A stretch of 41,286 nt of DNA from an uncultured Rubritalea sp. (lineage in GTDB: Bacteria; Verrucomicrobiota; Verrucomicrobiia; Verrucomicrobiales; Akkermansiaceae). The translations under genes were made by a program, and so were the position numbers. The stretch is from positions 1 through 41,286 of the forward strand of contig CAKZNV010000046.1 of NCBI GenBank assembly GCA_937132085.1, in the 5' to 3' direction. The notes under the pieces were generated by a model. It had not been told where the DNA came from and did no database searches. It saw only the letters and a list, made by a program, of their open reading frames with translations. This document shows positions 21,756 to 38,790 of the stretch, in pieces (position 1 is the first letter of the stretch; each line of letters opens with the position of its first letter).

Positions 21756-24700
21756 CTAAACTGATGGATAGATCTTTTCTAATAGCACTGAGATCTGTCC
21801 AGAGAAGAGGAGGATGGCTGCTAGGGCGAAGAATAGGATCGCGGTCATTAGCTTGATCTTGGAGGTGTGATTTGTCTGGAAGTTGATCAAGGCATTGCTC
21901 TTCATTCCAGTCATAGCTAGTGCGAAAATTACGATCAGTGGTAGCACGAAGGCGATGTTGTAGATGACTAGCATCGTGACGGCGTCTTGGCTTCCTTCAT
22001 TGATTTTATAAATGATCGGAGCATAGACCTGACCGGTGCAGGCTAGTTCTAACACAGAGATAACGATGCCTGAGCCGAATGCAGCGAGGACGTATAGGCT
22101 GGACTTGGAATTCTTACGGATGACTCCACGGATCTTCTTTTTGAGGAAGCTCGGTAGCTGGAGTGTCATGTCTTCTAGTCGACCTTGGCGAGCTCTCCAC
22201 CAGTCACGGAGTGAGAGGACCGCTACTAGTAAGGCAAAGCCAGCGAAGACGTAGTTGAGTGCATTTCTGACCCACTGATACTGGGTGTTCTCTGTGAGGT
22301 ATTTGAGAGCCTCGCTGAAGATAAGTCCGAATGATAGGTAGGCGAGGAATACTGCTAGGATGAATGCGAAGCCGACCATGAAGATCTCTTTAGCGGATCG
22401 CTTAGCAACGGTGAGGTAGGAGAGGAAGAAGATGATAGTAGCGAAGGCGCATGGGTTGATGCCGTCCAGCAGTCCACCTGCGATGACGATGGGTAAGGTT
22501 AGATCGTTGTAAGCTTTCTCAGTTTCTTGTTTAGCAGCGATGACTTCTTTCTCAGATTTAAAGCCAAACCATTCCTTCTTCTCAGGAGAAATCATTGTAT
22601 TCGCTAGAAGTCCAGCCAGGTCTTTAGGATTGATCTTAGAGCCTACTAGGAAGCCTTCTGAGGTAAAGACAGCTGGAGCTTTGCGGATCTGTGTGGATGG
22701 GACATTGAGTTTGTTAGAGAGGTGATTGTTCAGCAAGATACCTTCATTCTGATCCACGTATTCACGCTTGATTTCGAGTAGTGGGAAATCTTTTTTCATG
22801 TCCTTGAGGTAGCCTTCGACTTGGAGGCATTTCTTACAGCCTGCTTTCTCGAAGAATACGACGACTAGTTTTTCACGTGTAGAGGCTAGCTCTAGTTGCT
22901 TCTCAGGAGTGGTGAGGTGCTGAGGTTCTTCAGAGGCGTCTGAGGTCTTCGCTAAGCCTGCGAATGTGGTGAAGCCAGCGGATGCAGTTTTGTCATTACT
23001 ACCACCAGAGCTAGCGAAGTGCTTTAGGATGCGATCGTGATAGCTAGGGTTGATGGTTTTGAAGTCTACATAGGCTAACAGAGGGCGCATTCCTTTACCC
23101 ATGTTAGAGTAGTTGCTCTGGATGAGCCTAGAGAGTCTCTCCGTGACCTTGGCGTCTTTAGGTTGCTTCGGGATGAGGTTGGTAAATTTCTGTAGGTCTA
23201 TCGTTCTAGAGTGAGACAGCAAGCTGAGCATGGCTTCGAAACGATTCTCAGCAGACGGGTCGTTGTTGGCGGTGCTTTGTAGTGCTTTCTCTAAGACCGG
23301 GTTGAGCCTTCTCATGTTTTTGTCACTGAAGTATTGCTGGTCTTCTTTGAGCTTTGTGTCAGAGAAAATGTTAGACCAGGTGGAGTCTGCTCTGGTGGTG
23401 GTATTCGCTAGGGCTGCTCGCACCTGTGGGTTAGAGTCATTCATGAGCTTGCTGATGTTTTCTATCTGCCACTTTGATCCCATGATACCGAGAGTTCTCC
23501 ATGCCGCTCTACGAACCCATGGATTTTTAGAGCTGGTGAATCTAGCGATGAGCTCCGAGTCCTGCTCATGGGCAATTTTCTGAATGAGAATGAGGCTGAG
23601 AATGCGAACTTCATCATCGACTTCTTCCTTATTGAGCTGCTCAAGACACCAGGAATAGAAGATTCTCATTGTGCCTGCATTCGATGCAGCGCTCTCGGTG
23701 CGATAGGTGTAGGCATCTGAACCTCTCACTTTAGAGCCTTCAGATGTGATTGATTTCAGAGCCTTGTAGACCATGAGAATATTCTGCTCATGTGAGAATG
23801 AAGCTTTGATTGCTGCGGAGCGGATTTCGCTAGATTGATCCTGAAGTAGCGCCTCCAAGATAGGGACTGACTCAGCTTGTCTTGGATTATAGAGAGCCTC
23901 TGCGAGTGATGCTCGTTTACTGATTGGCATTTGAGGAATGCTGTCCTTGATGAGTTTGAGTCCTCTAGAGTCACCAGATTTAGTGAGGATGAGCGCGATC
24001 TGGAACGCTCTGTCTGAGCTAGCGTCAGCCACTGCGATTTCATATAACGTGGTAATCAACGTGGCTAAACCTCCAGTGGAAGTTGCTGATTTTCCTGCTA
24101 ATGGGATGATGGTCAGAGCTTTGCCATTGTTTGGTTTGAGGAAAGCATCATAGAGCGGATCTAGCTCAGTTTTGCTACGTGAAGGGAGAGCCGCGATCGT
24201 TCCTTCTTTAAGCTGGCGCAGCTGAGGATCTACTTTCTTAGAAGAGGGGAGTTCGATGCTGTTGACGATGGCGTCAATTTGCTCAGATTTTTTTGTTCTT
24301 AGCGCATCTGTTAGAGTGTTGGCTACGAAATTGTTCCCCGTTTTACTGTCGCTGTTACAGAGTAGTCTGAGTGCAGCACAGGCTACATCTTGGTTCTTGT
24401 TTCTGGAGAAATCAGCGAGAATTTTTAGTTGGTCTTCATCTGAGCTGCTGAATGCCTTTAATGAAGAGATGATAGTGTCTGGATCTCTGGTTTTGAGATG
24501 TTTGAGCAATTCTGGTGGTAGAGCATCAGACATTTCGATGAATGCCTGAGTCAGTGAACCTACCATTTCATCGTTCTTCAGATAGAGTTTTTTCAGAGTA
24601 GCTTCTGCTTCTTTGATGTTGAGAGCTACTGCGGTCTTGATGGTGTGGTGACGGACGAATTCATCATTGTCATTTTCTAACAAGTAGATGATGTCGTCTT

Positions 24701-25874
24701 TGGCTTCTTTGACTTTTTGCTTTGCTGTGTATTGCAGTGCTGCGACTCGGACTCTCCAGCGGCTGTCCTTTAGTAGCTTGATGATTACGAGAGATTCAGG
24801 GCTAGCCTTCTTTTTAGATTTTGAGGTGCCGTAGTCACCAAAAGGGTCATCATTATCTCCGCCTAGGAGTTTTCCTATGGCAGAAATGGAGGCAATAACG
24901 AGGTCTTCGTCTTTATGGTTGAGGAAGGTCTTTATGATTTCTAGCGACTTGTCACCGCCGATGTCTTTAAGGTTTTTGATGCCAACGTGGATGACGTTGA
25001 TGTCTTTTTCTTGTTTCAATCTCTCAGCGACGAAGGGAAGAGTCTGTGCTCCGCCTACGGTGAGGATCGCATCGATTGCTGTTTCACGGATCAGTGCATC
25101 GGGGGCATCGATGTAGTCTCTGATGATAGGTATCGTGATTAGCCCCAGCTTCTTTAAGCGAGAGAGGGCTTCGATTTGTTGGTCTCTATTGCCGAGAACT
25201 AGATCTCTGGAAAGCTGGGCGGCATAGTTCTGAGATGCCTTAGTTAGCACTAGTTCGTATTGCGCTTGCTTGAGCTGAGCTGCTTTGTTTTTAGGTAACT
25301 CAGGGTGATCTGTTAGAAATTGCTGAATGGATGCGACTGCGTTGAAGTTGTCGCTTTTGAGCATTCGTATTGCCCTAGCGATACGTGAACGATCGTCTGA
25401 GAGCAGTTGCTGGATGTAGAGTTGGACTTTCTCAGCACTTAGTTTGGATGACTTTTTATCGAGGACCTTAGCATCGTTGCTTGCCCATTGTTTCCATAGT
25501 TTGAGAGCTTCTGCATTCGTTTCAGCACCCTTCTCACCTGGTTTAGCCCATGGGTTGATCCATGGATTGTAGCCAAAGTCGCCACCACTGACGTCTTCTA
25601 GTAGCTCGATCGCTCCTAGCCTCACAGAGAGCTGTGGGTGCTCTAGAAGCAGAACGAGAGACTGCTTAGGGTAGTTTTTTCTTTTGTTAAGTGCCTCCTC
25701 TATCTTCGGTCTCCATTCGATGTCAGAGAGCTTAGACATAGCATTTGCCCACTGTTCGGCAGTGGCTTTACCTGTTCTGAGGTCTGAGGTGAGTGTAGCG
25801 TCATCCTGCGCATGTAGGATCGATGAGCTAAGTAGGCTGAGAGCTACACTGGTAATGAAGAGTCTTTTTTTCAC
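21756..25874 (-). CDS. HEAT-repeat / thioredoxin / DsbD-CcdA fusion protein
   Basis: The 1372-residue protein has four parts. A signal peptide (about 1-22, ending LHAQ) exports it. About 900 residues of alpha-helical HEAT-type repeats (about 60-940) form a probable periplasmic scaffold. A thioredoxin-like domain (about 985-1105) contains KLVVVFFEKAGCKKC with Cys1013 and Cys1016. The last part (about 1125-1372) has six or more transmembrane helices and two conserved cysteines as in DsbD/CcdA: GINPC (Cys1142) and LELACTGQVYAP (Cys1279). In DsbD this pair moves electrons from cytoplasmic thioredoxin to a periplasmic thiol domain; here the CKKC domain is the likely receiver. The HEAT part has no cysteine motif and would hold a target. 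CKKC is an unusual active site. Gene ends 286 bases downstream of the Bat-type operon. Confidence 0.9.
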   Translation of the reverse strand: MKKRLFITSVALSLLSSSILHAQDDATLTSDLRTGKATAEQWANAMSKLSDIEWRPKIEEALNKRKNYPKQSLVLLLEHPQLSVRLGAIELLEDVSGGDFGYNPWINPWAKPGEKGAETNAEALKLWKQWASNDAKVLDKKSSKLSAEKVQLYIQQLLSDDRSRIARAIRMLKSDNFNAVASIQQFLTDHPELPKNKAAQLKQAQYELVLTKASQNYAAQLSRDLVLGNRDQQIEALSRLKKLGLITIPIIRDYIDAPDALIRETAIDAILTVGGAQTLPFVAERLKQEKDINVIHVGIKNLKDIGGDKSLEIIKTFLNHKDEDLVIASISAIGKLLGGDNDDPFGDYGTSKSKKKASPESLVIIKLLKDSRWRVRVAALQYTAKQKVKEAKDDIIYLLENDNDEFVRHHTIKTAVALNIKEAEATLKKLYLKNDEMVGSLTQAFIEMSDALPPELLKHLKTRDPDTIISSLKAFSSSDEDQLKILADFSRNKNQDVACAALRLLCNSDSKTGNNFVANTLTDALRTKKSEQIDAIVNSIELPSSKKVDPQLRQLKEGTIAALPSRSKTELDPLYDAFLKPNNGKALTIIPLAGKSATSTGGLATLITTLYEIAVADASSDRAFQIALILTKSGDSRGLKLIKDSIPQMPISKRASLAEALYNPRQAESVPILEALLQDQSSEIRSAAIKASFSHEQNILMVYKALKSITSEGSKVRGSDAYTYRTESAASNAGTMRIFYSWCLEQLNKEEVDDEVRILSLILIQKIAHEQDSELIARFTSSKNPWVRRAAWRTLGIMGSKWQIENISKLMNDSNPQVRAALANTTTRADSTWSNIFSDTKLKEDQQYFSDKNMRRLNPVLEKALQSTANNDPSAENRFEAMLSLLSHSRTIDLQKFTNLIPKQPKDAKVTERLSRLIQSNYSNMGKGMRPLLAYVDFKTINPSYHDRILKHFASSGGSNDKTASAGFTTFAGLAKTSDASEEPQHLTTPEKQLELASTREKLVVVFFEKAGCKKCLQVEGYLKDMKKDFPLLEIKREYVDQNEGILLNNHLSNKLNVPSTQIRKAPAVFTSEGFLVGSKINPKDLAGLLANTMISPEKKEWFGFKSEKEVIAAKQETEKAYNDLTLPIVIAGGLLDGINPCAFATIIFFLSYLTVAKRSAKEIFMVGFAFILAVFLAYLSFGLIFSEALKYLTENTQYQWVRNALNYVFAGFALLVAVLSLRDWWRARQGRLEDMTLQLPSFLKKKIRGVIRKNSKSSLYVLAAFGSGIVISVLELACTGQVYAPIIYKINEGSQDAVTMLVIYNIAFVLPLIVIFALAMTGMKSNALINFQTNHTSKIKLMTAILFFALAAILLFSGQISVLLEKIYPSV

Positions 25875-26031: not shown

Positions 26032-26126
26032 TATATTTAGGATTGGAGAGCGCATAAACTACCTAAATACCATACTGGTTTATTAAGTAAGTTAGTGGAG
26101 GATCGCGTAAGCGAGGATGTTTGCAT

Positions 26127-26143
26127 TGATTCGGACCGAATCA
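26127..26143. terminator. Hairpin at the end of the Bat-type operon
   Basis: TGATTCGG (26127-26134) and CCGAATCA (26136-26143) form a perfect stem around one base, 18 bases beyond the stop codon of the last operon gene. The flanks (GGAGGCGATG on the minus strand and CATCCTCGC) extend pairing with gaps. No U-run follows, so it may be a 3'-end stabiliser or repeat remnant instead of an intrinsic terminator. Confidence 0.45.
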
Positions 26144-26160
26144 CGGATTTCATCGCCTCC

Positions 26161-26739
26161 TCAACAACAACAACCTTCGGTATGTGTCGTATCGTTTAAG
26201 CCATCAGGTGTGTAGCAGACTACTAGCTTGCCATTGACTGTGATGCCTTGGAGCTTGGTCGTTCTTCCGCTCTTACATTGGAGTTCTTTGACATTGAAGA
26301 TCGTTTTGAAGAGTCCGTGGTCTTGCTTGATGTCTTTGAGTGCGTCTTTCTTGAAAATACGCTTGATTTCACGTTCAAATGCCTTTGCCCAATCTTCGTC
26401 TGAGCAAGATGGTGATGCGAGTAAGAATCCGCCGTTCTCTAGATACTTCTTCAGGTTCTTGCGTTCCTTAGAGGTAAGAGTGAAGTCACCTTCGCCAGTC
26501 ATGATAACGAATGGGAACTTGAATAGCTCATCCGCAGCCATTTTCACGGCTTTGAATCTGCGTTCTGTAGAGATACTGGTCTTTTGCTGGACCGTGGTGA
26601 GAAACTCATCACTGAAGCACTCGCTAGTCTTGGTGCCAGCGTAGATGAGGTTTCCACACTGCACAGCACCTTCTTTGGCTGTCACTAGCGCTGCGGTGCA
26701 GGCTAGTAGTGTGAGTATTAGTTTTAGTGTTTTCATCAT
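26161..26739 (-). CDS. DUF4159-type secreted protein with Cys-Cys-Cys end
   Basis: The 192-residue product has a signal peptide (about 1-21, ending LVTAK). Its body, with FPFVIMTGEGDFTLTSKERKNL, KKYLENGGFLLASPSCSDEDW and FEREIKRIFKKD, matches DUF4159, a flavodoxin-like or amidotransferase-like fold common at the end of Bat/MoxR operons in these phyla. The chain ends TEGCCC, three cysteines immediately before the stop, and several further cysteines occur in the body. It is the last gene of the operon (33 bases after DUF4175). Function is not established. Confidence 0.85.
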   Translation of the reverse strand: MMKTLKLILTLLACTAALVTAKEGAVQCGNLIYAGTKTSECFSDEFLTTVQQKTSISTERRFKAVKMAADELFKFPFVIMTGEGDFTLTSKERKNLKKYLENGGFLLASPSCSDEDWAKAFEREIKRIFKKDALKDIKQDHGLFKTIFNVKELQCKSGRTTKLQGITVNGKLVVCYTPDGLNDTTHTEGCCC

Positions 26740-26772: not shown

Positions 26773-29556
26773 TTATTTTTGTTCCTCTGAGTAGAAGCGT
26801 TTGACGGCGTCTTTGTATTTGTCAGGAACATTCGTGCGGGTAGATTGGTTGGTGTTAGTGTCACGTTTTTTGCTAGATTCGATAGAATTTTTTCCAGAGA
26901 GTTTTGGTGTTCGACCATTGCCTTTTCCTAAGCCATTACCTTTCCCTTTGCCTTTACCAGCACTACCAGGTGACTGATATTCATTTCGTGATGGTCCGAA
27001 CATGGGAGCGTTGCCTCTGTTGAGACCATCACCTCCACCGCCGAAGCCACCTTGGCCTCCACCATTTTGACCCATGCCTCCTTTGCCACCGCCCCCACCT
27101 TTGGCTTGTTGGAGTAGAGCTTGGAGCATTTGCTTCATGGCTTCTTCCATGTCTTCATCAGCATCTTCTGGTGGTTTAGGTGGTTTAGGTGGGCGACCAT
27201 TGATCATATCTGCAAACTCATTGTCTTCCATGTCGATGAGTTCCTTCATCAGTGTGTAGGCTAGGTAGGCATGATTTACGGCATCGTGGGATTTGCCATT
27301 GGTGCATGAGAGAGTCGCCGCGTCCATTGGATCAGGGATGTTGAGTTGTTGCATTTTTTCTAGGAAAATATCACAGTCATGTGCCAGCTCAGCATATTCT
27401 TCAGGGAGAGCTGCCGCCGCTTTCTTGAGATCTTTGGCAAATTGCTCTAGCTGCTTTTTATTCTTCTGCTGAGTTTGGCCTAGTGGCTCTAACTGACCCA
27501 CATTGCGGCGGATGCCTTTGCTTAGTTCTTGAGCAATTCTAGTGATGCGAGAGGCGATTGATTTCTGGTTGTTATAGAGCTTTAAGAAGACCGCCGCTTG
27601 CTGAGCCACGTCACCCCAGAGTTTAAGCTTTTCTGCTTGGTCTTCGAGTTCTTGCGCCTCCTCTTGGTATGGGCGTAGACGTTCAATGAGGATATTGATG
27701 ATATTGTCATTGGGATTTGTCCCAGAGTTGAAGTCCATAGCGCTGAGGTCTTCTAGGTTTGTTAGAAGTGTTTGTGCAGTTTGTTCGGCTATTTTAGTGA
27801 GTTCTTTTTCTGTTTCGAATGCTTCAAAATCTTGACTGATCCTGAACACTTCTTCACGTGAAGCAGAGTGTGTTTTAAAGGCATGTTCTCTGGCTCCTTT
27901 GAAGGTTTCTAGCTGCTCTTTCTTGTTAGCTATTTTGAACTCTTCTAGTGAGGCTATGGCTTCTTTGATCGCTTTATTAAGGGCTATATAGCGGATGTTG
28001 AATTGCTCCATCTTTAGCTTACTGCGGAGTCTCGCTGCGTATTCCTCTTCGGAAATGATTTCTACTCGGACTACTGATGAGGTTCCGATGCCTAGCAGGG
28101 ATGGGTTCTTGTCATTGGACTCTAGGTAGAATTCTAGGATGTCTTTTGGCTTCACTCCGATGCTGCTGAGGTCGAGTTGTTGTCTGAATTCGTATGTGTC
28201 TGATTGCACGGACTGAGCGATGATTTTAGCTCGGTCACGGTAGCCCTGTAGAGTGCGCACGAGGTAAACATCACTTAGTTCGTAGTCGTCTTCTACAGAT
28301 CCTTTGAGAGGGATGATAGAGTTCGGTGTGGCTTGCACATACTTGGCTGGGAAGGAAATGTCGGCCACTGGAGCGAGATCTGCTCTAGTTAGAATACTGA
28401 ACTGAAGCGGAATCGCAGAAATCGTTCCTCGGACATCGTTGATATTACAGGTGATGTTAGAGGATTGAGTAGCTAGCCAGGTGAAAATCACTTGATTCTT
28501 GCTCTCAGAGCTGGTGGTGGCAGAGACGAGTTCGTTTAGATCAGGTTGCTTATCAGAAAGTTCAGTGATGTTAATTTCTCCTGCTGAAAGTGGTCTGTTA
28601 GAGGTGACTGTTAGAGTGATGGTTGAGCCATGGATTGCCTTGATCTCGTTGCCTTCGAGTGGGAACTCTATCGGCTTGCGTTTAGTGTAGCTTGGCGGTG
28701 TGATTCTGATGACTGCGTTGGTGAATTTAGGCTGGAGTAGGACGTTGATCTTCTTCCACTCGCTACGAGCTTTACCTGTTGAGAAGGAATACTCTAGGTC
28801 TGTGACTACGCTGTTAAACTTCTTTGAGAAGACATTGTGTTCCTCTTGGAAGGTGTTGATGCGTTCTACATCGTTGGTATTCGGGTCTCTGACTAGGCAA
28901 ATGACATCTTCTTCGATTTCAGCGCCAGTGATTTTGACACGGACTTGATTACTCGAACCATAGATGGTGTTTTCTTCTGTCTGAGTGATTTCAAACTGCA
29001 GGGGAGAATACGGTGGAATGTCCTGAGATGGGTGAGTGAGGCGATTATAGACAGTGTCAAATGCTTGTGGATGGATCGTTCTGAGACCAAAGATTGTAGC
29101 CGCAACAGCTCCTAGTCCTAGAATGCCGTAGCCGAGTTGTTTGAAGGGGATTTTGCTCTTTAGAGGGATGCCTTTGAGTTCTTCCGCAGCTTTCTCCTGA
29201 GCCAGCTCACTGAGGTAGCCTTGGAGTGGTGAGATGGATTCTTTTGTGCTGAGGTCTGCTGCTGCTCGGATGTTGTTGGCTGGGTTTGCAGAGGCTTGGT
29301 CAGCGAGTGATGCGATGGTCGGTTGTGGGGTGCGGATCGCTTTGACGATAAGGAATAAAGCAGCTAGAGCTGTGAAGCCGAAGATGATGTAGTTGGCTAG
29401 AGTTCTGGCAGAATTATCCATCGCCCACACTGAGTCAGCTAGTCCGTAGAGGATCATGGCTAACAGAAAGAGGACGGCTACCAAGAGGATAGTCTTGAGG
29501 CATTTTCCAATGACCCAAGTGCGCTTGTAGCTGGAGATGGCTTTTTGGTAATTCAT
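26773..29556 (-). CDS. DUF4175-type membrane protein
   Basis: The 927-residue protein has two hydrophobic helices near the N-terminus (about 22-42 and 53-72), a third at about 131-151, then a large periplasmic part with beta-rich domains (about 180-470), a long coiled-coil-rich region with many Glu/Lys/Gln (about 490-770) and a low-complexity Gly/Asn/Lys-rich tail (about 800-900). This order is the DUF4175 pattern found beside BatA/VWA genes. The Gly-rich tail (for example KGGGGGKGGMGQNGGGQGGF) is in frame with good codons. It follows the VWA gene by 18 bases. Its partners are likely the VWA proteins. Confidence 0.88.
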   Translation of the reverse strand: MNYQKAISSYKRTWVIGKCLKTILLVAVLFLLAMILYGLADSVWAMDNSARTLANYIIFGFTALAALFLIVKAIRTPQPTIASLADQASANPANNIRAAADLSTKESISPLQGYLSELAQEKAAEELKGIPLKSKIPFKQLGYGILGLGAVAATIFGLRTIHPQAFDTVYNRLTHPSQDIPPYSPLQFEITQTEENTIYGSSNQVRVKITGAEIEEDVICLVRDPNTNDVERINTFQEEHNVFSKKFNSVVTDLEYSFSTGKARSEWKKINVLLQPKFTNAVIRITPPSYTKRKPIEFPLEGNEIKAIHGSTITLTVTSNRPLSAGEINITELSDKQPDLNELVSATTSSESKNQVIFTWLATQSSNITCNINDVRGTISAIPLQFSILTRADLAPVADISFPAKYVQATPNSIIPLKGSVEDDYELSDVYLVRTLQGYRDRAKIIAQSVQSDTYEFRQQLDLSSIGVKPKDILEFYLESNDKNPSLLGIGTSSVVRVEIISEEEYAARLRSKLKMEQFNIRYIALNKAIKEAIASLEEFKIANKKEQLETFKGAREHAFKTHSASREEVFRISQDFEAFETEKELTKIAEQTAQTLLTNLEDLSAMDFNSGTNPNDNIINILIERLRPYQEEAQELEDQAEKLKLWGDVAQQAAVFLKLYNNQKSIASRITRIAQELSKGIRRNVGQLEPLGQTQQKNKKQLEQFAKDLKKAAAALPEEYAELAHDCDIFLEKMQQLNIPDPMDAATLSCTNGKSHDAVNHAYLAYTLMKELIDMEDNEFADMINGRPPKPPKPPEDADEDMEEAMKQMLQALLQQAKGGGGGKGGMGQNGGGQGGFGGGGDGLNRGNAPMFGPSRNEYQSPGSAGKGKGKGNGLGKGNGRTPKLSGKNSIESSKKRDTNTNQSTRTNVPDKYKDAVKRFYSEEQK

Positions 29557-29574: not shown

Positions 29575-31773
29575 TTAGATGAGTCCGCTGCGGCGTCTGA
29601 CCCACCACTCGGTGGCTAAAATAAATAGAATGATAATAGGAACGAACCAAAGTAACCAGCTGGATTTCCAGATGGATTCTGATTTTGCTTCATGATGAGA
29701 CTTTTGGCTGAACATCTCATTGAGGAATGTAGTGAGTTCACTTTCATCAATGACTCTTCCGCCAGTGGATTCGCAGAGCTCGCTGAGGAATACTGGATCT
29801 GGGTTGAGGTTGTCTTGTTCAGTGGGTGGTGCCTTGACTTGGATGTTCAGGACGGGAGCAGGTGATTTGTCGTCGGTATTTAGGGTGACAGTGTAGCGTC
29901 CGGGTTCGGAGGGTTCAAAGGAGCATTTCCAGGTAGGTTTACCGGCGACTGGCACCGAGCTAGCTGGATTCAGCTGGATGGGTTCTTTGCCTTCTGCGGT
30001 GATGGTGACGGTAGGCTTTGGTGATTTCTTAGTGCCACGGTAGCTGATGGAGAATGATACTGGCTCTTGGAGGTCTACTGTCTGGCTGGATGTGTGGATG
30101 GAGTAGTCGTGACCAGGTAGGAACTCTGAGTAAGCGACCATCCATTGGATCATCTGAGTCCAGAATTCTTGATACATGTTGCCTAGCTCTCTGGCTTCTG
30201 GGTAGAAATCCCACTTCCAGAGACCGTCCGCATTGACTAGTCCTGTGACGCCTTGACCGTAGCGGCGCACCATGAGGAGAGGGAATTTACCTTTGTTGCT
30301 CGGTAGTGATCCTTCAGCGAGGATTCGGGTGAAGGGTTTGACTGAGTCGACTCGGTGAGCGTCTTTCAGGCTAGGTAGAGATTGCCAAATAGGGCTGTTA
30401 GGCTCTGGCAGTGCTTGGCCGAATAGTCCTGCGTTTTGTCCATCCGCTGTAGGAGCGATGTTGAATTCTGAGGTGTTGCCGCTAGCCCAGTTGACTGGTT
30501 CTAGGGTCTCTAGCGCTTCGACTCTACCTGAGTAAGGTTTTCCTCTGGCGAACAAAATAGCGCCACCTTGGTCTCTAACAAAACTCTTGAGAGCCTCGAT
30601 GCGCTGCTCAGTGAGGAAGTGCTCGGCGTTCTTGCCGAAGATGATGAGGTCGTAGTGAGAGAGTGCTTCTTTGGTATCGGGGAAGATAGCATCGCTGGAG
30701 GCTACTGGTTCAGATTGGTCAGAATCTATACGGAACCAACGAGTTTCACTGAGTCTGTGCACTGAGTGAACATCCATGTGACCTTGCTGACGGAGTAGCT
30801 GAGCGAGGAATTTAGAGTCCCAATACGGTGCTGCTTCGGCGATGAATACGCGTGTCTTGGTCTTTAGAATACGAATGTTAATCTGGTCTGCGTTGTTGCT
30901 AGCGATTTGCTCACCTGCAGCTTTGCCAATTTTAAGATGCAGGATAGCAGTCTTTTCTGGGGCTTTGACTGAGAATGTGTGGAGCTTCTTTTCGTTATTC
31001 TTGATCTCTAGTTGTTGATTAGCGAGCTCTTTGCCTGCGTTGTCTGTTAGAGTTAGATTGACGGACTGATTGCCTAGATGTTGGTTCTCGATGACTGCGG
31101 TGATCTGGATGTTCTGACCTGGGAATGCAGTGATGGTGTTTCTGCTAGATTTCAGTGAGAGATCACTCTTGCGAACATCTTTACCGATACTGATAGCGTA
31201 GATAGGTGCATTGTTGGCTCTGGATAGTAGGCTGAGAGTGGAATTCTTAGGAGCTAAGGTTTGGCGACCGTCAGTGAGGACGATGAGTGCTTCAGGTGAG
31301 TCACCACCAGATTGTAGTTTAGTGAAAAGATTTGTTCCAGAGCGGTGCAGGTTAGAGTTGTTGCCGTCAGCTTTGAGGTCTGTTAGCTCGTTTAGTTTAC
31401 GACTATCTTCTGCGAATCCGTAGAGCTCGGTAGTGATGCTATTTTCCTCAGCGGCTTTGTTGATTTCGCCAGTGAGTAGCTGCGCTTTATCAGATCTGGT
31501 GAGTTTGGTTTGCAGATTGATGGTCGCCATGGAGGCTGACTCATCGATTAAGACTGGGTAGAGACGTGGCTTGGTTTGGACAGTTTCGACCCACTTGCCT
31601 GGATTTAGGAGAAAGGCGCAGAGAGCGATGAGTGCGAGAGTTCTGAGCACGATGAGTAGCTTGCGGATACCACTGCTCGCATGATGAGAGGATCGCCAAG
31701 ACGCATAGATGCCTAGCCCGATGATGAGGATGATCAATGGGATCAAGATTGGTAGATCGAGGACGGGCTTCAT
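29575..31773 (-). CDS. VWA-domain membrane protein with C-terminal anchor
   Basis: The 732-residue protein starts with two transmembrane helices (about 8-24 and 38-56), then has a von Willebrand A-like domain with metal-site motif LIDESAS (Asp77, Ser79, Ser81), a beta-sandwich region, a class I amidotransferase-like region (about 320-560; YDLIIFGKNAEHFL, GGAILFARG) and a C-terminal transmembrane helix (about 703-722). VWA proteins bind ligands through a metal ion. Its start codon overlaps the stop of the upstream BatA-like gene by four bases (31770-31773, ATGA-type), which signals translational coupling. A single reading frame carries the whole protein. Confidence 0.88.
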   Translation of the reverse strand: MKPVLDLPILIPLIILIIGLGIYASWRSSHHASSGIRKLLIVLRTLALIALCAFLLNPGKWVETVQTKPRLYPVLIDESASMATINLQTKLTRSDKAQLLTGEINKAAEENSITTELYGFAEDSRKLNELTDLKADGNNSNLHRSGTNLFTKLQSGGDSPEALIVLTDGRQTLAPKNSTLSLLSRANNAPIYAISIGKDVRKSDLSLKSSRNTITAFPGQNIQITAVIENQHLGNQSVNLTLTDNAGKELANQQLEIKNNEKKLHTFSVKAPEKTAILHLKIGKAAGEQIASNNADQINIRILKTKTRVFIAEAAPYWDSKFLAQLLRQQGHMDVHSVHRLSETRWFRIDSDQSEPVASSDAIFPDTKEALSHYDLIIFGKNAEHFLTEQRIEALKSFVRDQGGAILFARGKPYSGRVEALETLEPVNWASGNTSEFNIAPTADGQNAGLFGQALPEPNSPIWQSLPSLKDAHRVDSVKPFTRILAEGSLPSNKGKFPLLMVRRYGQGVTGLVNADGLWKWDFYPEARELGNMYQEFWTQMIQWMVAYSEFLPGHDYSIHTSSQTVDLQEPVSFSISYRGTKKSPKPTVTITAEGKEPIQLNPASSVPVAGKPTWKCSFEPSEPGRYTVTLNTDDKSPAPVLNIQVKAPPTEQDNLNPDPVFLSELCESTGGRVIDESELTTFLNEMFSQKSHHEAKSESIWKSSWLLWFVPIIILFILATEWWVRRRSGLI

Positions 31774-33839
31774 GAAATGGTAGATGTGTTAGAGCTAGGT
31801 TTGTTGCGCTTGGTAGTAGCGGCGAATGCCTCTGCAATGAGGAGTAGGAGGACTGCTGAGACTAGCCACGGCCACATTGGGATGCCTTGAGAAAGGGCTT
31901 CGGCTTTTAAAATGTCGGACGCTTCGGCAGACTGACCTTGCTTGAGTGCAGCAGGGTCAAGGAGGCTGAGATCAGATTCGCTAGTGGGGAAATTGACAAA
32001 GTTGGTGTGAGCGATGGTGTTACCAGTGCGCCACTCGAAGATTCCCGGTGTTGCTGGGACGGTGCTTTGTAGTGAGGCACCTTGCTTGGTATTAGAGAGC
32101 TTGATGGCCCAGTTTTCACCGCTGAGTGGGTGGAGCGCTACGGTGCTAGGGTCTATGTTCTCAGGCACTAACCAATTCACTGGGCTGCCAGGTAGTAGTT
32201 CAAACTGGAGATTCATTTTCGATGGCTGAATGTAGAGTAGTAGCTCTGCCATGAAGGTGACGAATGGCTCTTGGCTGATCCAGTCTGAGAGGTTTGGGTC
32301 GAAGGGGAGGTTCCAGATGAGTCGCTTTGATTTGCTCGATGACTTACTGGTGTTATTGAGCAAGATAGCAGGAATTTTGTCGGTGTAGCTGATGATCGAT
32401 GCGTTGAGCCATTCGCTAGGTAGCTGGAATCTCTGTCGGAAATTCCCCTGAGCTGGATTACCAAATTCTCCAGAGCTAAAGATACTGAAGAGTGATGAAG
32501 TTTCTTTAGTAATGCCTGCTCTCCAGCCTTCTGGGTTGTCTTTCTGGGTGAGTGCGTTTGAGCTGGCTGGTAGATTTAGTAGCTGTTGGAGCTGCTGAAG
32601 TTGGCAAGACGATGATGGTGTTACGATGATCGTGGTGCCGTTGTTAGAGAGTTTTGTTAGAGTCTCGATGTCTTGGCCATTCCACTCATGGATGAAGAGG
32701 ATATCATGCACTCCCACAGGTGGGATTTCTGCGGTGACTGTGTGGCTAAGCCATGGCAGAGCAGAGGCTAGGCGTTGGAGGACGGAAGCTGGGCCGTGAA
32801 CTTTAGATTTAGCTTCTGCTGGAGAGGCTCCTAGTGGTGTGAGTGAGCAGAGGCTTAGAGATTCTCGCACAGGAATGATGGTGAAGCGCTCGTCGTCACC
32901 TTTGAAACTATCTTCAGTCAGTGAGGCTGTGACAGCTACGTCGCCATGATGGCTGAATTGGGTGCGAAATTCGACTTCAGTTTGTCCATTAGCAGGGATC
33001 TCGATGTCTTTAGACTGACGACCTCCGCCAGCGTTGAGATAGATGGTGGTGGACTTAGGCTTGTTTGAGAAGTTCTTGATTTGGCAGGAAATAGCTACGT
33101 CTTGACCAGTCACTGGTGAGCTAGGTGTGGTGGCGATTGAGCTGATCGCTATGTTGGCGAGGTCAGTATCGCCGACTGCTAGTTTAGTGAACTTGATGGC
33201 TTCTGGGACGTCTAGTTCTGCATTTTCCCAAGCTTGCTTCTGGAAGTCGGAAATGATGATGATCTCACGGTTACCGTTGACGTTCTTTAGCTGCTCTAAG
33301 GCTAGCTTGATAGACGCTGAGATAGCGCCCACATCTGAAGTCGGTTCAGCAGTTTGTAGTGATTCTTTGAGGAAAGTGAGGTTTGGTCCCGGAGCAGGGA
33401 AGACAGCGTTAGGAGTTGAGTTGATCCAGATGATGTTCGCATTGTCTGGTTTGAGCTTGGTGAGGAGTTCAGAGGCTTCATTGCATGCTTCAGTGAATCG
33501 TGATGTGCTGCCTTGTTGGGCGCTCATGGAGGCAGAACGATCGATGATGATGATTACATTATCATCCGCACCAGCGATGCGGTTAGGGTCTTCTGAGACT
33601 AGAAATGGCTGAACGAAAATAGCTAGCAAGGCTGCGGCAGCTAGTGTGCGTAGGAGGAGCACGAGCCTGTCTTGAGGTTTGCGGACTCGTGACGTTTTCT
33701 TGATGATGCGCTTGAGGAATGTGATGTCTGAGAAGCGGTGCTTGGGTGGGCGGCTTCTGGCAAACAAGTGCACAAGTATAGGAATGGCAGCGAGTGCCAT
33801 GAGCCAGAAGAGTGCAGGATTATTATAAAGTAGTGACAT
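31770..33839 (-). CDS. BatA-like VWA-domain membrane protein
   Basis: The 689-residue protein begins with the BatA N-terminal motif (NPALFWLMALAAIPILVHLF, transmembrane about 8-27, then RFSDITFLKR), a second helix at about 60-80, and a VWA domain with the metal site IIDRSAS (Asp100, Ser102, Ser104). A large part from about 280 to 640 has beta-rich, CARDB-like and amidotransferase-like stretches. A last helix occurs at about 655-675 followed by a basic polar tail. BatA is the core membrane subunit of the aerotolerance operon. Its VWA and helix order match. The gene follows the DUF58 gene by 16 bases. Confidence 0.9.
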   Translation of the reverse strand: MSLLYNNPALFWLMALAAIPILVHLFARSRPPKHRFSDITFLKRIIKKTSRVRKPQDRLVLLLRTLAAAALLAIFVQPFLVSEDPNRIAGADDNVIIIIDRSASMSAQQGSTSRFTEACNEASELLTKLKPDNANIIWINSTPNAVFPAPGPNLTFLKESLQTAEPTSDVGAISASIKLALEQLKNVNGNREIIIISDFQKQAWENAELDVPEAIKFTKLAVGDTDLANIAISSIATTPSSPVTGQDVAISCQIKNFSNKPKSTTIYLNAGGGRQSKDIEIPANGQTEVEFRTQFSHHGDVAVTASLTEDSFKGDDERFTIIPVRESLSLCSLTPLGASPAEAKSKVHGPASVLQRLASALPWLSHTVTAEIPPVGVHDILFIHEWNGQDIETLTKLSNNGTTIIVTPSSSCQLQQLQQLLNLPASSNALTQKDNPEGWRAGITKETSSLFSIFSSGEFGNPAQGNFRQRFQLPSEWLNASIISYTDKIPAILLNNTSKSSSKSKRLIWNLPFDPNLSDWISQEPFVTFMAELLLYIQPSKMNLQFELLPGSPVNWLVPENIDPSTVALHPLSGENWAIKLSNTKQGASLQSTVPATPGIFEWRTGNTIAHTNFVNFPTSESDLSLLDPAALKQGQSAEASDILKAEALSQGIPMWPWLVSAVLLLLIAEAFAATTKRNKPSSNTSTIS

Positions 33840-33855: not shown

Positions 33856-34728
33856 TTAGTGAGCTAGTCGGTCAAAGAGGGTGAAGTAGGATTCTTGGGT
33901 GGAAATGAGGGTGTAGTCTACCTTTCTAGACGCAGCAAGTGAGCGTAGAGCTTTAGTGTGTGCCTTGAGTTCATCTTGCCAAGTCTGCTTGATCGATGAG
34001 GTGTGAATCGTGATTTTCTCATCGGTCTCCATGTCAGTAAACATAGAGAGCCCACGGTCTGTTAGATTCATTTCTCCTGGGTCTAAGACATGGAAGAGAT
34101 GAATGCGGAAGCCTCGGTGAATGTAAGGATTGAGCGCTTGGAAGATCTGCTTTGGCTCATCGAAGAAGTCAGAAAGGATGACGATGGTTCCTTTGCGCTT
34201 GATGAGTGGGTTGGCTCTTTTTAGTGACTCAGCGAGTGAGGTCTGGGAGCCGGGTTGGTTCTTCTCTAGCAGATTTAAAATGCTGTGCAGATGTTTCCTA
34301 GTAGATCCTGGAGGTAAGTGATGGCGGATGTCTTTGTCGAATATCTGTAGTCCCACTTGATCGTTCTTGCTGACGATGAGGTAAGAAAGACAGGCTGCGA
34401 AGAATGACGAATATTCGAGCTTAGTTAGCTCAGATTTTTCCTTGAATCCCATCGATGCAGAGGAATCGACGAAGATGGTGCATTCGAGGTTAGTTTCCTG
34501 CTCAAAGGTCTTCAAATAATGCCTGTCCGAACGTGCGAAAACTCTCCAGTCCACCATGGATGGATCATCACCCGGTGTGTATTGGCGGTATTCATGGAAT
34601 TCAGTCGAGGAGCCACGCTGCTTAGAGCGGTGGCGTCCAGAGAGATATCCTTCGACAAGTGCTTTGGCTCCGAACTCATAGTTGCGGAGCTTGTTGATGT
34701 CTTCAGGTTTTAGATATTTGAATTGCAT
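33856..34728 (-). CDS. DUF58 family protein
   Basis: The 290-residue cytoplasmic protein has the family signature of DUF58: RQRGSSTEFHEYRQYTPGDD followed by PSMVDWRVFARSDRHYLKTF (about 36-75) and a VWA-like region with FVDSSASM (Asp88, Ser90, Ser92) and IVILSDFFD. DUF58 proteins are encoded between MoxR and BatA genes in almost all Bat-type operons, as here, and are thought to bind the MoxR ATPase. The gene begins 23 bases after moxR and ends 16 bases before the BatA-like gene. No transmembrane segment is visible. Confidence 0.93.
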   Translation of the reverse strand: MQFKYLKPEDINKLRNYEFGAKALVEGYLSGRHRSKQRGSSTEFHEYRQYTPGDDPSMVDWRVFARSDRHYLKTFEQETNLECTIFVDSSASMGFKEKSELTKLEYSSFFAACLSYLIVSKNDQVGLQIFDKDIRHHLPPGSTRKHLHSILNLLEKNQPGSQTSLAESLKRANPLIKRKGTIVILSDFFDEPKQIFQALNPYIHRGFRIHLFHVLDPGEMNLTDRGLSMFTDMETDEKITIHTSSIKQTWQDELKAHTKALRSLAASRKVDYTLISTQESYFTLFDRLAH

Positions 34729-34751: not shown

Positions 34752-35735
34752 TTAAGGAAGGATCTTCTTGATGATGTCGTCTTCTGTGATGCCTTCACCA
34801 GTAGCATTGTAGTTCGGTGTGATGCGGTGGCGTAAGATAGGGAGTGCTGCGTCACGTAGCTCATCCATCGATGCTGCTGGCTTGCCTCTTAGTAGTGCGA
34901 GCGCTCTAACAGCCTTAGCAAGACACTGAGAAGCACGAGGGCCAGCTCCGTAGGAAATGTAGTTGTTTACAAACTCAGAAGCGTGTTCAGAACCAGGACG
35001 GGTAGAGTGAACGAGCTTTAGAATGCCTTTGACCACGCTCTCAGGGAGTGGGACGTCGATCGTTGCATCTTGCAGTTCAAGAACTCCAGCTGTGTCTAAA
35101 ATTGGGCTAGCTGTTGGTAAGTTTTTACCAGTCGTGAGGTTAACGATTTGCTCTTCTTCCTCGATAGTTGGGTAGCCGATTCTGATGTTGTAGAAGAAGC
35201 GGTCAAGCTGAGCTTCAGGAAGCGGGTAAGTGCCTTCATGCTCGATCGGGTTCTGGGTGGCAAAAACGATGAATGGCTCTTCGAGCTTACGGGTTTTGCC
35301 AGCGACGGTGACCTGCTTTTCCTGCATCGCTTCTAGTAGAGCGGCTTGAGTCTTAGGTGGAGTTCGGTTGATCTCATCAGCGAGGATGAGGTTAGAGAAG
35401 ATAGGTCCTGGTGTGAACTCGAATCCTCTGCCACCAGCACTATCTGTCTGGAGGATCTCAGAACCTACGATGTCTGTAGGCATGAGATCTGGTGTGAACT
35501 GGATACGCTGGAATTTTAGCCCTAGGATGTGGCCGAGAGTGGACGCTAGAAGTGTCTTAGCGAGACCGGGAACACCTTCGAGAAGGCAGTGACCTTTACA
35601 GAGGAGTGAGACTAGCATTTGTTCTACTACTTCATCTTGACCTACGATGACTCGTGCAGTTTCTTTTCTGATGTTCGAGACTTGGTCTTGGACTTTCTGC
35701 CATTGTTCAGCAGGGGCTGTGTTTGTTGTCGTCAT
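34752..35735 (-). CDS. MoxR-family AAA+ ATPase
   Basis: The 327-residue ATPase has Walker A GVPGLAKT (residues 54-61), Walker B LILADEINR (about 112-120), sensor 1 in VFATQNP and a C-terminal lid domain with GAGPRASQCLAKAVRALA. This is the MoxR arrangement, including the insertion of TPPKTQAALLEAMQE. MoxR ATPases act as chaperones that assemble or remodel VWA-protein complexes. In this operon the substrates would be the DUF58, BatA and VWA proteins encoded next. The ATG is preceded by a long AT-rich spacer after the 1008-residue protein gene (28 bases). Probably soluble. Confidence 0.95.
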   Translation of the reverse strand: MTTTNTAPAEQWQKVQDQVSNIRKETARVIVGQDEVVEQMLVSLLCKGHCLLEGVPGLAKTLLASTLGHILGLKFQRIQFTPDLMPTDIVGSEILQTDSAGGRGFEFTPGPIFSNLILADEINRTPPKTQAALLEAMQEKQVTVAGKTRKLEEPFIVFATQNPIEHEGTYPLPEAQLDRFFYNIRIGYPTIEEEEQIVNLTTGKNLPTASPILDTAGVLELQDATIDVPLPESVVKGILKLVHSTRPGSEHASEFVNNYISYGAGPRASQCLAKAVRALALLRGKPAASMDELRDAALPILRHRITPNYNATGEGITEDDIIKKILP

Positions 35736-35763: not shown

Positions 35764-38700
35764 TTATTGTGCTTCGATTGCTTCTAAGGATTCTTCTTCT
35801 ACAGGTTCATCCTCTTCAGTTTTTTCGTTTTCTTTTGCCTGTTTTAAAGTCTGATCATAATACTCCTTGAGCGTGTCGAAGGGCAGAGCATCGAAGGCGG
35901 CAGCGCTGTCTTTGAGGCTAGGATAGATTTTATAAATCTCATCTAACATCTTCTTGCGCTTGTCCTTATTTGCTTCTCTTTCGGCTTCTATTTTAGCGAG
36001 CTTCTCCTTGTTTTGAGTAAAGATCAGGAGGTTGTCAGGATGGTCGTCTTCTGTAGTCCAGAACGATTCAATGTCAGAAATCTTAGCTGATTCTTTGGGC
36101 GAGTAGGCAAATGAAGTAGTTTCTGATGAATTGTAATCATGGGTCGCTACCATGGCAAATGCTGGGATGGAGCCATCTTTCAGCTGCTTTTCCATATCAG
36201 TGAGCTTATCATGTGCCTGTAGAGTTATTGGGCTGATGTAGAACTCATAGCCTGGCAGGATCATTCCAGAGGTGATTGAAACAGTGAAGCCTGCAAAGTC
36301 GTCACTATTTTCTAGTGCGAGTTTGGCAATTTTTTCAGCAGTCTTGGCATCATGTTTCTCACCGATGATTGTGGTAAGGTGTTCGATGATCTTCTTCAGC
36401 TTAGCTTCAGGCATTTTGGCTAGGTTTTGATAGGAACTGAATCCGAGAATGTGCTTAGCTGCTTTTTGTAGCGACTCTATATCATCGGTGACCTCCGAAA
36501 TAGCTAGTCTCTCCGAGATGGTGAGTTTTTCTAGAGCTGGGCGAATTTCGATTGGTTTGAAAGAGGCGAAGTTCTTAGTGATTTCTTGCAAACGGTTTTC
36601 ACTCACATCATCTGCACTAGGGATCGGACTTACCTTTTTACCATCTAACAAATCGTTCGCTCTGGTGATGAGAAGTGTTTTGTATTCTTCGGCAGTGAGG
36701 TATCTCTGCAGTGTCGTGATTTCTGCGTAGCTGTGTGCTGAGTGAAACAGTTTGCTGATGATAATGGCCACTCTTTGTTGCGTGCTTACAGAGCCGTAAT
36801 AGCTAGCGGCTTGCTCATCTTCTATGCTTAGCAATTTCCGCCAATCTTGTAGCTCATACTTACTCAGCTTAGGTGTTGGCTTAGCATTTGGTTCATCAGC
36901 ATCGAGAGCGTCAGCTCCATCGTCTTTGTAGGCTAGTTTCTGTAGAGAGTTTAAAATCAAGTTGCGTTTCTTTTTATCTTTCGTTTTTGCGGCGGCATAG
37001 ACGAACTTGGCACTAAATTCGCTAAGTTCTTTAGTGTTTAGAGCTACAGCTAGTTGCTCTAAAATATCGGCAGTTTTAGCGTCTTTTTTAGCGAGGTTAG
37101 TAAGCAGCTGATTGATGTCGAGCGGCTGAGTGTAGCGTCTTAGCTTAGCGATGAATTTCTTAGTCCCACCTTTTTGTTTAATACTATATTGACCACTACT
37201 TATATATTCATCACCAGTAGCTTCACCTATTTCTTCACGTAGGTTCTTTTCGTATTGATTTAGGAAATCAGCCGCCTTCTCTCTACGTTTAACGATGAGG
37301 GATTTGACTATATTATAAAAAGAGCTCGGAGTTTCGCTGCTTAGAATGCTTTTTTCTAGAAGAGCGATACTCTCATCTGTGTTCTGGGTGATCAGACTAT
37401 TTGCTAGATTGACCATATAGGGGGAATCCGTGTTTTGGAGATAGACTTTAGTAAGCTCTATTTTAGAGAAATTGCGGTGTCTTTTCCACCAGTCTAGAGC
37501 CAGAGTCTGAAGCTGTTTCACAGGTAGATCTCGTGTTTCTTCTTTGGAGAGAGGGAGAGCATTTTTGACTAAAGAACTAGCTTGTTCCCCTCTGGTAGAA
37601 GGTTTCGATAAGTTCTCATAAGCATCTAGTGCGGATTCTCCACTGACACCGCGAGCGCCGAAACCAGAGCCGAATGGGTCATCTGATGAAAATCCACTCA
37701 TGTCACTGTAGCTCTCATTAGAAGAAGGCATCAACACTCGATCATCCATGAGTGCTACCAGAGCGATGAATCCGTCCATGCCATGATAGGTAAGTTGGTC
37801 TAGAGGTGAGGCGTTTTTGTTTGCTTCTTGTTTGTTGATCAGGAAGAGCGGATCCACACTGTAGTATGCATTTGGGCTGTCTGGATTGCTTTTGAAATCT
37901 GCAGAGGACTTGATGAGCTTGAGTATCTCTGGGCTAAATGTATGATCTGCAATCTCTGGGATAGGTGCCAGTTTCCCTTCAGCACGGTCTTTCACACGTG
38001 GTATCAGTATTGCTAAGCCAGCCTGATCGTCCCAGCCACGTGGGAACTTTTTCTGCAGAGTTTGTAGTGCTGTTAGATAGGCTTTCCAGTCTCCTGATTT
38101 TTCAAACTTGGTGAACACTCTTTCATACTGAGTAGTAGCGACACGGTCAATGAGGGCATCAATGATTTCTTCCGGGTCATCGTGATTGATGAAAAGCGTA
38201 TTCATTAGGTCTGTTGCTTCTTTTTGATAGCCTGAATGATATGCTAAGTTAGCAATCGCTAGAACGACTGAGGCTTCTTGAGTCCCATAGTAGCGCCAAT
38301 CCGAATCGTTGCTTGTGACTTGTCGTAGGAGCCATGTTTGGAGCTTTTTGATGTCTTTCTTGATATCTACATTCTTCATTTTTCCGCTAAGAATGAGCTC
38401 GTTGTCACTATTGTAGCGTTCGCCTCTCTTTTTAGTATAGGTAAACTCTAGTCCGCCTATTAGTATGAACCTTCCTGGTTTCGAGGCGTCTTTATTGGGA
38501 ATGTAAAAGCCATTGCCAGCGATGCCAGGCTTGTCATCATAGTGACTGACGAAGTTATAATCTGAGTAGGAGTAGTCTAGATTGTCAGTTGATAATTTTA
38601 CAAATTTTGCTCCTCTAGCATTTGGGAAGCCTAGAGATAGCAACTTCTCGATCGCTGGCTTATAGTCTGCCTTGTCTTTAGTGGTAGACTGAGAAAGCGC

Positions 38701-38790
38701 TTGGTTGCTATTGAAAAGCATAACACTGAACATCGCTATTATCGTGAAGACAACACTTCTGGTATTCAATGGTGAGACACATTCATTCAT
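35764..38790 (-). CDS. Large secreted protein of unknown function, first gene of the Bat-type operon
   Basis: The 1008-residue protein has a signal peptide (about residues 8-34, ending ALSQS). The body is long, charged and helical, rich in Lys/Glu/Asp/Leu/Ala, and lacks any motif I recognise. The pattern of many short amphipathic helices (for example about 400-700) hints at TPR or HEAT-like repeats. The C-terminal 40 residues are highly acidic (NEKTEEDEPVEEESLEAI). It is followed by moxR after 28 bases in the same direction, so it is probably the first gene of the operon, with copy 2 of the palindromic repeat in its upstream region. A role in binding Bat-complex substrates is an inference from context only. 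Confidence 0.75.
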   Translation of the reverse strand: MNECVSPLNTRSVVFTIIAMFSVMLFNSNQALSQSTTKDKADYKPAIEKLLSLGFPNARGAKFVKLSTDNLDYSYSDYNFVSHYDDKPGIAGNGFYIPNKDASKPGRFILIGGLEFTYTKKRGERYNSDNELILSGKMKNVDIKKDIKKLQTWLLRQVTSNDSDWRYYGTQEASVVLAIANLAYHSGYQKEATDLMNTLFINHDDPEEIIDALIDRVATTQYERVFTKFEKSGDWKAYLTALQTLQKKFPRGWDDQAGLAILIPRVKDRAEGKLAPIPEIADHTFSPEILKLIKSSADFKSNPDSPNAYYSVDPLFLINKQEANKNASPLDQLTYHGMDGFIALVALMDDRVLMPSSNESYSDMSGFSSDDPFGSGFGARGVSGESALDAYENLSKPSTRGEQASSLVKNALPLSKEETRDLPVKQLQTLALDWWKRHRNFSKIELTKVYLQNTDSPYMVNLANSLITQNTDESIALLEKSILSSETPSSFYNIVKSLIVKRREKAADFLNQYEKNLREEIGEATGDEYISSGQYSIKQKGGTKKFIAKLRRYTQPLDINQLLTNLAKKDAKTADILEQLAVALNTKELSEFSAKFVYAAAKTKDKKKRNLILNSLQKLAYKDDGADALDADEPNAKPTPKLSKYELQDWRKLLSIEDEQAASYYGSVSTQQRVAIIISKLFHSAHSYAEITTLQRYLTAEEYKTLLITRANDLLDGKKVSPIPSADDVSENRLQEITKNFASFKPIEIRPALEKLTISERLAISEVTDDIESLQKAAKHILGFSSYQNLAKMPEAKLKKIIEHLTTIIGEKHDAKTAEKIAKLALENSDDFAGFTVSITSGMILPGYEFYISPITLQAHDKLTDMEKQLKDGSIPAFAMVATHDYNSSETTSFAYSPKESAKISDIESFWTTEDDHPDNLLIFTQNKEKLAKIEAEREANKDKRKKMLDEIYKIYPSLKDSAAAFDALPFDTLKEYYDQTLKQAKENEKTEEDEPVEEESLEAIEAQ

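Follow-up and report, generated by a model that had tools for sequence, protein, structure and literature searches.

DsbD and its relatives CcdA and ScsB are the closest described counterparts of the protein considered here; in DsbD, electrons go from the cytoplasm to a pair of membrane cysteines, on to the CxxC motif of a thioredoxin domain and from there to a target. In a window of 41,286 nucleotides from an uncultured Rubritalea sp. (the whole stretch of DNA that was analysed; contig CAKZNV010000046.1, positions 1 to 41,286), one uninterrupted open frame with a GTG start (21756..25874, minus strand) encodes a 1372-residue protein in which HEAT-type helical repeats, a thioredoxin-like domain and a DsbD-like membrane domain are fused, and which we refer to as the fusion. 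Like DsbD, CcdA and ScsB it has a two-cysteine membrane domain and a fused thioredoxin CxxC, with similarity to the DsbD_TM and DsbD_2 families; it differs from DsbD in bearing about 950 residues of HEAT repeats in place of a small N-terminal domain and in having its thioredoxin domain before the membrane domain and not after it (the order in E. coli DsbD is taken from general knowledge), and from all three in falling below the curated Pfam cut-offs and in having a close partner gene. This partner encodes a small DUF4159 protein that is exported and has a CCC[U/C] tetrad. The two look like a conserved redox pair, whose second member is here a predicted new selenoprotein, and it is very likely that the two act together.

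The fusion opens with a signal-peptide-like N-terminus, judged by reading the sequence (residues 1-22, charged, hydrophobic and ending ILHA; 25809..25874, minus strand, as for all parts of the protein). HEAT-type repeats follow over about residues 35-970 (22965..25772), where the Pfam scores for HEAT_2 (104.9 bits) and HEAT (61.1 bits) both exceeded the cut-off. A structure model of residues 173-1372, built from a 34-row alignment (mean predicted local distance difference test, pLDDT, 81; predicted template modelling score, pTM, 0.59), showed helical repeats until about residue 970, strands and helices ordered as in a thioredoxin at about residues 1003-1094 (22593..22868) and several long helices from about residue 1108, at the start of the membrane domain (about residues 1108-1368; 21771..22553). 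The best PDB matches listed by Foldseek for this model were mostly HEAT solenoids (SF3B1, CAND, karyopherins, the PP2A A subunit and alphaRep), so that Pfam, the model from residue 173 and the PDB matches all pointed to the repeated helix pairs of a HEAT solenoid. Of the 60 PDB matches listed for a 22-row profile of the thioredoxin and membrane domains, most were thioredoxins and glutaredoxins aligned with the first domain; the highest-ranking was a cytochrome c555 construct, matched over a short stretch.

The CxxC (Cys1013 and Cys1016; 22827..22838) and the membrane cysteines Cys1142 (in NPC) and Cys1279 (in ACT) were invariant in 11/11 full-length rows, and the same four columns were invariant in a 42-row alignment that takes in partial rows. 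The invariant CxxC and the strand-helix order of the model are those of the thioredoxin superfamily, with Pfam matches below cut-off, and the conserved cysteine pair among long helices is that of a DsbD/CcdA domain; because DsbD_TM and DsbD_2 scored under their curated cut-offs, we use the label DsbD-like only. A preliminary description of this DNA had proposed a HEAT scaffold, a thioredoxin and a DsbD-type carrier in one protein, with a helical N-terminal part and cysteines at exactly these positions, and the Pfam, alignment, model and PDB results bear this out. Its remark that the CKKC site is uncommon describes no property of the family, the middle residues being KK, SQ, KE, RE, SE, PE, DV or EE across the 11 rows, and CKKC was dropped as a hallmark since these residues vary. 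The fusion probably carries electrons outward across the membrane, as predicted from these domains.

A frameshift joining separate genes was ruled out as the origin of the frame by ten further full-length, colinear copies (33-61% identity, no internal stops) and was rejected, as such copies occur in many genomes; on the sequences compared, this is a conserved fusion gene. Among 58 relatives, 15 matched the fusion at an E value of 0.001 or less, the genome of the window included, and 14 of these were convincing, the fifteenth (G057) being only a 56-residue piece with two stops. A wider scan of contigs confirmed 578 loci, of which the best 80 were kept, and 37 of those 80 were full-length (aligned from query residue 100 or earlier to residue 1300 or later), their records carrying Verrucomicrobiota, Lentisphaerota or Kiritimatiellota titles or no phylum name and including Rubritalea sp., Akkermansia glycaniphila and Verrucomicrobium sp. 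The other 43 matched in part, mostly over the thioredoxin-membrane unit and many of them in other phyla; at least three of these partial loci (L071, L076, L081) have frames ended by the contig end and cannot show an upstream gene. Loci and genomes overlap between the samples (L051/G009, L053/G005 and L052/G583, for example, were judged to be the same contigs). Three longer fusions that were scanned (L059:5512-10071, L067:5530-10191, L083:5476-9885) each carry a second, N-terminal thioredoxin ahead of the HEAT part, a domain that a Pfam scan did not find in the fusion of the window. Proteins with HEAT repeats and a CxxC and without C-terminal DsbD motifs were seen at loci L177, L184, L185 and L186. 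In genome G004 (L010, L016) the fusion lies in two frames, broken just ahead of the CxxC, where a sequencing error and a real loss are indistinguishable.

The link between the fusion and the tetrad protein was found in three samples. A CCC[C/*]GGxE motif lay within 1.5 kb upstream of the fusion in 36/37 full-length loci (within the best 80 of 578), and in 0/43 partial loci anywhere in the locus, only 35 of which include more than 1 kb upstream. DsbD alone was rejected as a marker of the module, since partial thioredoxin-DsbD loci lack the tetrad motif. Likewise, thioredoxin-DsbD proteins without HEAT repeats (L091-L130; Chloroflexota, Poribacteria, Thermodesulfobacteriota and other titles) share the same unit, with best segments 33-41% identical to the fusion, but unlike the fusion have no CCC[C/U]GGxE motif in their loci. 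In a phylum sample of 288 genomes, DUF4159 scored at least 230 bits in 26, all with the tetrad motif, and the next four were without it. A HEAT-type match (a class read from match positions, with G283 excluded) was present in 19/288, and 19/19 of these genomes also held a tetrad DUF4159, compared with 7/269 of the rest; in 18 of the 19 the HEAT-type match and the tetrad DUF4159 lay side by side on the same contig. In G283 a HEAT frame lies further downstream. An order sample of 386 genomes gave 60 with a tetrad DUF4159 (65 copies, 11 of them with TGA), sorted into 51 type-1 copies (one truncated) and 14 type-2 copies; in both the phylum and the order searches only some first-look candidates per genome were scored, and absences are soft. 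The fusion was next to 43/49 testable type-1 copies (27/32 by tblastn, plus 13, plus three), a count that leaves out G597 and G480 at contig ends; it was not adjacent in G248, where a HEAT-thioredoxin gene without the DsbD part lies on another contig. Because a tetrad DUF4159 stands directly upstream in 36/37 full-length loci, the target of the fusion is likely small and specific, not large, and the suggestion in the preliminary description of a self-contained machine holding a large periplasmic target appears doubtful.

The partner gene in the window (26092..26739, minus strand), when read through an in-frame UGA, encodes an exported protein of 215 residues that Pfam, relatives, alignment and model identify as DUF4159 (PF13709, 87.8 bits; cut-off 25.9). 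An ordinary open reading frame call gives 192 residues and stops at the TGA within TEGCCC-TGA-GGDEI, after which the frame is open on to a TAA, so that the last residue of the tetrad and the C-terminal helix are lost. In a 39-row alignment GCCC[U/C]GG and Cys112 were invariant, with Cys28 and Cys41 almost invariant as well; a group in genus g3, outside this alignment, reads NCCCC. The structure model (mean pLDDT 88.9) was less certain in the stretch with the tetrad (residues 181-200, block means 68 and 75), and its nearest fold was 4i66 (Hoch_4089, uncharacterised; E 5.6e-13, template modelling scores 0.70/0.74), which scored 59.5 bits against the family profile. Hoch_4089 shares the DUF4159 fold and profile but has no tetrad in the alignment, and the tetrad type is set apart from other DUF4159 proteins by GCCC[U/C]GG together with Cys28, Cys41 and Cys112; 20/20 other DUF4159 regions held 0-3 cysteines, too few for a tetrad (a further three were left out because their flanks were short).

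The UGA (26161..26163, minus strand) stands in GCCCUGG as predicted Sec193, where relatives carry cysteine: the codon was either TGA or TGC/TGT, with flanks alike, which is the exchange seen between selenocysteine and cysteine homologues, and in the UGA copies shown the reading frame past this codon is conserved up to the same end. We compared 12 UGA copies (nine among the 58 relatives, plus L052, apparently the same as G583, plus G489 and G612) with 14 hand-picked cysteine copies. A hairpin like a selenocysteine insertion sequence (SECIS) follows the codon in the window (7 bp, GUC loop; 26127..26143, minus strand), and 5-7 of its 7 pairs were kept in 12/12 UGA copies, compared with at most 4 of 7 in 13/14 of the cysteine copies. 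In the UGA set 94.0% of hairpin cells paired, with at most 48.8% when the register was slid; the cells paired, the double-change cells (7, shuffled mean 2.5) and the covariation score each lay above all 500 shuffles, and no excess was found in the count of doubly changed pairs (reached by 302/500 shuffles) or in pair types (500/500), tests that relatedness of the copies can inflate. The same columns in the cysteine set paired in 43.9% of cells, as in shuffles, and a slide of -1 paired better (59.2%) than the true register; one cysteine copy (L062) folds a hairpin in a shifted register. The hairpin sequences have a G in the loop, about 24 nt from the UGA, and the loop was of 3 nt (5 nt in one) in 10/10 folded UGA copies with printed pairs. 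This fits the loop, stem and spacing limits for bacterial SECIS elements stated in PMC13188914 (loop of 3-9 nt with G in its first two positions, stem of 4-16 bp, placed 16-37 nt downstream of the UGA). Folding energy does not separate the sets: -7.5 kcal/mol or lower was reached by 8/12 UGA copies (42-45 nt stretches; the others -5.2 to -7.0) and by 7/14 cysteine copies, the latter with other folds.

The genome of the window holds SelA (502.6 bits), SelB (305.6 bits) and tRNA-Sec (58.3 bits; called SeC(tca) by ARAGORN). SelB was above cut-off in 9/9 UGA genomes of the relatives set, 30/58 relatives and 2/14 controls, and tRNA-Sec in 9/9, 38/58 and, less selectively, 5/14. In the order sample SelA was present in 117/386 genomes, and by tetrad codon in 10/11 TGA genomes versus 10/49 cysteine genomes, the one TGA genome without a SelA match (G583) being 86% complete. 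On a 39-row tree the selenocysteine label takes two changes, as a single gain and a single loss would, although the group in which the cysteine copy of G004 stands among ten UGA copies has a support of only 80/84 and the tree has no inferred root; since the G004 copy lies inside the UGA group and keeps 6/7 hairpin pairs, its cysteine is taken to be a recent change. The genome with this cysteine copy and its SECIS-like hairpin is the one in which the fusion is split. Because UGA and cysteine exchange, a hairpin with compensatory changes is shared, and SelA, SelB and tRNA-Sec are encoded in the genome, we predict that this DUF4159 protein is a selenoprotein; an in-frame UGA, cysteine homologues, a SECIS-type hairpin and a cysteine-rich, redox-type motif are features it has in common with known prokaryotic selenoproteins.

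The predicted family appears new relative to two catalogues. DUF4159, PF13709 and CCCU have no entry among the 119 families and subfamilies in Table 1 of the 2026 catalogue PMC13188914, nor do they occur in its text by term search. In NCBIfam release 20.0 the read-through protein had no meaningful match, the best one scoring 13.3 bits (cut-off 105). A full-text search of open-licence papers found nothing on DUF4159, alone or with selenoprotein, and open-licence literature likewise gave nothing for DsbD with HEAT repeat and thioredoxin in Verrucomicrobi.

The tetrad also occurs in a second genetic setting. A gene for an UshA-like protein was next to 16/19 type-2 CCCC tetrad proteins, namely 14/14 of the order copies plus G283 and G277 of the phylum sample (by tblastn), and 3/3 of the UshA-like neighbours scanned had a cytochrome c554 domain above cut-off and four CxxCH motifs each. 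These three scored 222-250.5 bits (cut-off 275) against NF041198, the UshA-like family that is itself listed as a predicted selenoprotein family, but all three carry cysteine and the cytochrome c554 domain. As judged from gene neighbourhoods, the tetrad protein thus usually adjoins a predicted electron-transfer protein, of one of two unrelated kinds, and two such neighbours of one kind of protein make its redox role testable. The type-2 CCCC-DUF4159 followed by an UshA-like protein is found at loci L139, L178-L180 and L220-L231. In G283, G277 and G432 there is a separate thioredoxin downstream too, and in G242 (L182:3271-4262) MsrB and then MsrA follow the CCCC-DUF4159 gene.

In the window the pair closes a row of genes that all lie on the minus strand. 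It starts with a gene for a 1008-residue protein without a Pfam match (35764..38790), followed by a MoxR-type AAA ATPase (34752..35735; AAA_3, 210.4 bits), a DUF58 protein (33856..34728; 160.3 bits), a BatA-like protein with a VWA domain (31770..33839; BatA 50.8 bits, VWA_2 45.2 bits), a 732-residue protein with only sub-cut-off Ig-like, Filamin and CARDB matches (29575..31773) and a 927-residue protein with no Pfam family above cut-off (26773..29556), homologues of which lie directly upstream of DUF4159 in relatives; DUF4159 comes next and the fusion last. By tblastn with the proteins of the window, the order from the 1008-residue gene to DUF4159 was kept in 7/7 relatives with wide regions, the first gene standing in the same place in each (one match was weak, E 2e-07, its region being cut), and the order from the 732-residue gene through DUF4159 to the fusion was kept in 8/8 more distant loci, which were selected by hand. 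The row thus brings together the MoxR, DUF58 and BatA/VWA genes that mark Bat operons and differs from them in ending with a tetrad DUF4159 and a thioredoxin-DsbD fusion. The role of MoxR-Bat genes is unsettled: as told in PMC3557215, one report is of oxygen tolerance and reducing power and another of no oxidative phenotype, and it is recounted there that reducing agents partly restored a Bacteroides fragilis bat mutant and that export of reducing power was proposed. We take this link of Bat to reducing power as context rather than as proof.

We propose that the MoxR-Bat row may end in a redox module of two genes, to which the fusion, anchored in the membrane, would supply the electrons. A cytoplasmic reductant would reduce the DsbD-type membrane cysteines Cys1142 and Cys1279, these would reduce Cys1013 and Cys1016 of a periplasmic thioredoxin domain, and the thioredoxin domain would in turn reduce the CCC[U/C] tetrad, here predicted to end in selenocysteine, of the exported DUF4159 protein. 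Given the DsbD chemistry described above, the path from the cytoplasm through membrane cysteines and CxxC to the tetrad is the natural reading, and we lean towards a passage of electrons from the fusion to the tetrad, as a somewhat favoured inference. The HEAT solenoid would most likely dock DUF4159, alone or assembled with Bat proteins, next to the thioredoxin site, and the tetrad would most likely act as a thiol or selenol reductase or peroxidase on oxidised periplasmic proteins or small oxidants. The wider proposal is more tentative and stands a little below an even chance: that the CCC[U/C] DUF4159 proteins are a new class of periplasmic selenol/thiol enzyme, the working output of Bat-type rows, with two interchangeable electron supplies (HEAT-thioredoxin-DsbD for type 1 and an UshA-like multihaem cytochrome for type 2) and the HEAT solenoid as a dock. 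The proposed module would connect MoxR-Bat genes and a dedicated electron carrier with a predicted selenoprotein family, would suggest a specific job for the puzzling MoxR-Bat operon and makes a concrete prediction, namely that DsbD-type electrons reach the CCC[U/C] site through the thioredoxin CxxC.

Several observations weigh against this proposal. The isolated membrane domain scored 24.4 bits for DsbD_TM (E 2.1e-05; curated cut-off 27.1) and 22.2 bits for DsbD_2 (E 1.4e-04; curated cut-off 24.9), the best thioredoxin or glutaredoxin match of the isolated thioredoxin domain was also below cut-off (E 0.027), and no DsbD/CcdA membrane-domain structure was among the 60 PDB matches listed for the thioredoxin-membrane profile. 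Because four HEAT proteins (in genomes G079, G212, G217 and G248) keep the CxxC without DsbD motifs, DsbD would not always be the electron source. The pairing has exceptions: one full-length fusion (L072:5389-10158, Kiritimatiellae) has no tetrad motif upstream; six type-1 copies, all from genus g3 and all with NCCCC, are without a neighbouring fusion (in the same genus the GCCCC copy of G622 is accompanied by the fusion, as are those of G077, G269 and G293); and the tetrad proteins of G290, G242 and G071 have neither the fusion nor an UshA-like partner adjacent. The linkage counts share phylogeny, so p-values overstate their independence, and the 217 bp gap between DUF4159 and the fusion, the widest in the row, weakens the case for co-transcription. 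The sequences show the domain make-up, the invariant cysteines, the close linkage, the exchange of UGA and cysteine, the SECIS-like hairpin and the genes of the Sec machinery, whereas we infer the topology, final substrate, physical contact and electron flow of the module. In Leptospira biflexa the deletion of all bat genes left growth and oxidative tolerance unchanged, according to PMC3557215, and the proposal is held less firmly because of this result.

The main rival is a metallation module, in which a metal or cluster is inserted with the help of MoxR-VWA (Bat) proteins and bound by the CCC[U/C] tetrad together with the remaining conserved cysteines, the fusion just keeping the thiols or selenol reduced for loading. 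Four adjacent cysteines with an invariant Cys112 and near-invariant Cys28 and Cys41 would suit such a site, and DsbD and CcdA are generally known to feed CcmG or Sco-type proteins. The row includes MoxR, DUF58 and BatA/VWA, and MoxR-VWA pairs are described as inserting metal, as in NorQD, in PMC9976466. Thiol or selenol chemistry also suits adjacent cysteines, and Pfam recognised no metalloprotein family among the proteins of the row, and we regard metallation as unlikely, at about one chance in four. A second possibility is that the fusion is a general periplasmic thiol reductase whose HEAT part binds many oxidised exported or Bat-complex proteins, adjacency to DUF4159 reflecting shared regulation alone. 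That HEAT solenoids often bind varied clients and that DsbD relatives serve several partners (both from general knowledge) would agree with this, as would the lower conservation of the whole fusion (29% mean column identity over 42 rows, partial ones included) than of DUF4159 (50% over 39 rows); it is made improbable by the close coincidence of HEAT-type genes with tetrad DUF4159 across the phylum sample and by the partial thioredoxin-DsbD loci, none of which has the tetrad motif. That the UGA is a true stop, with DUF4159 truncated here and the downstream codons a relic, or a plain sequencing error, agrees with the mechanical frame call, read-through being deduced from sequence alone, and is very improbable against 12 copies with a frame kept to the same end in those shown, a common hairpin with compensatory changes, cysteine at exactly this place in relatives and SelA in nearly all UGA genomes of the order sample.

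Elsewhere in the window, the intergenic stretch upstream of the fusion (25900-26070) holds short dispersed repeats, pieces of which match six other places in the genome, one of them at 38912-38949, and which were not tied to the mechanism. A DUF6288 protein with a PDZ-like stretch is encoded close to the fusion on the opposite strand (19104-21116, plus strand), and past the first gene of the row there is a PIN-PhoH protein (39175-40734, plus strand). At the other end of the window, Mur ligase and MurB-type domains are joined in a single frame (1282-3585, plus strand).

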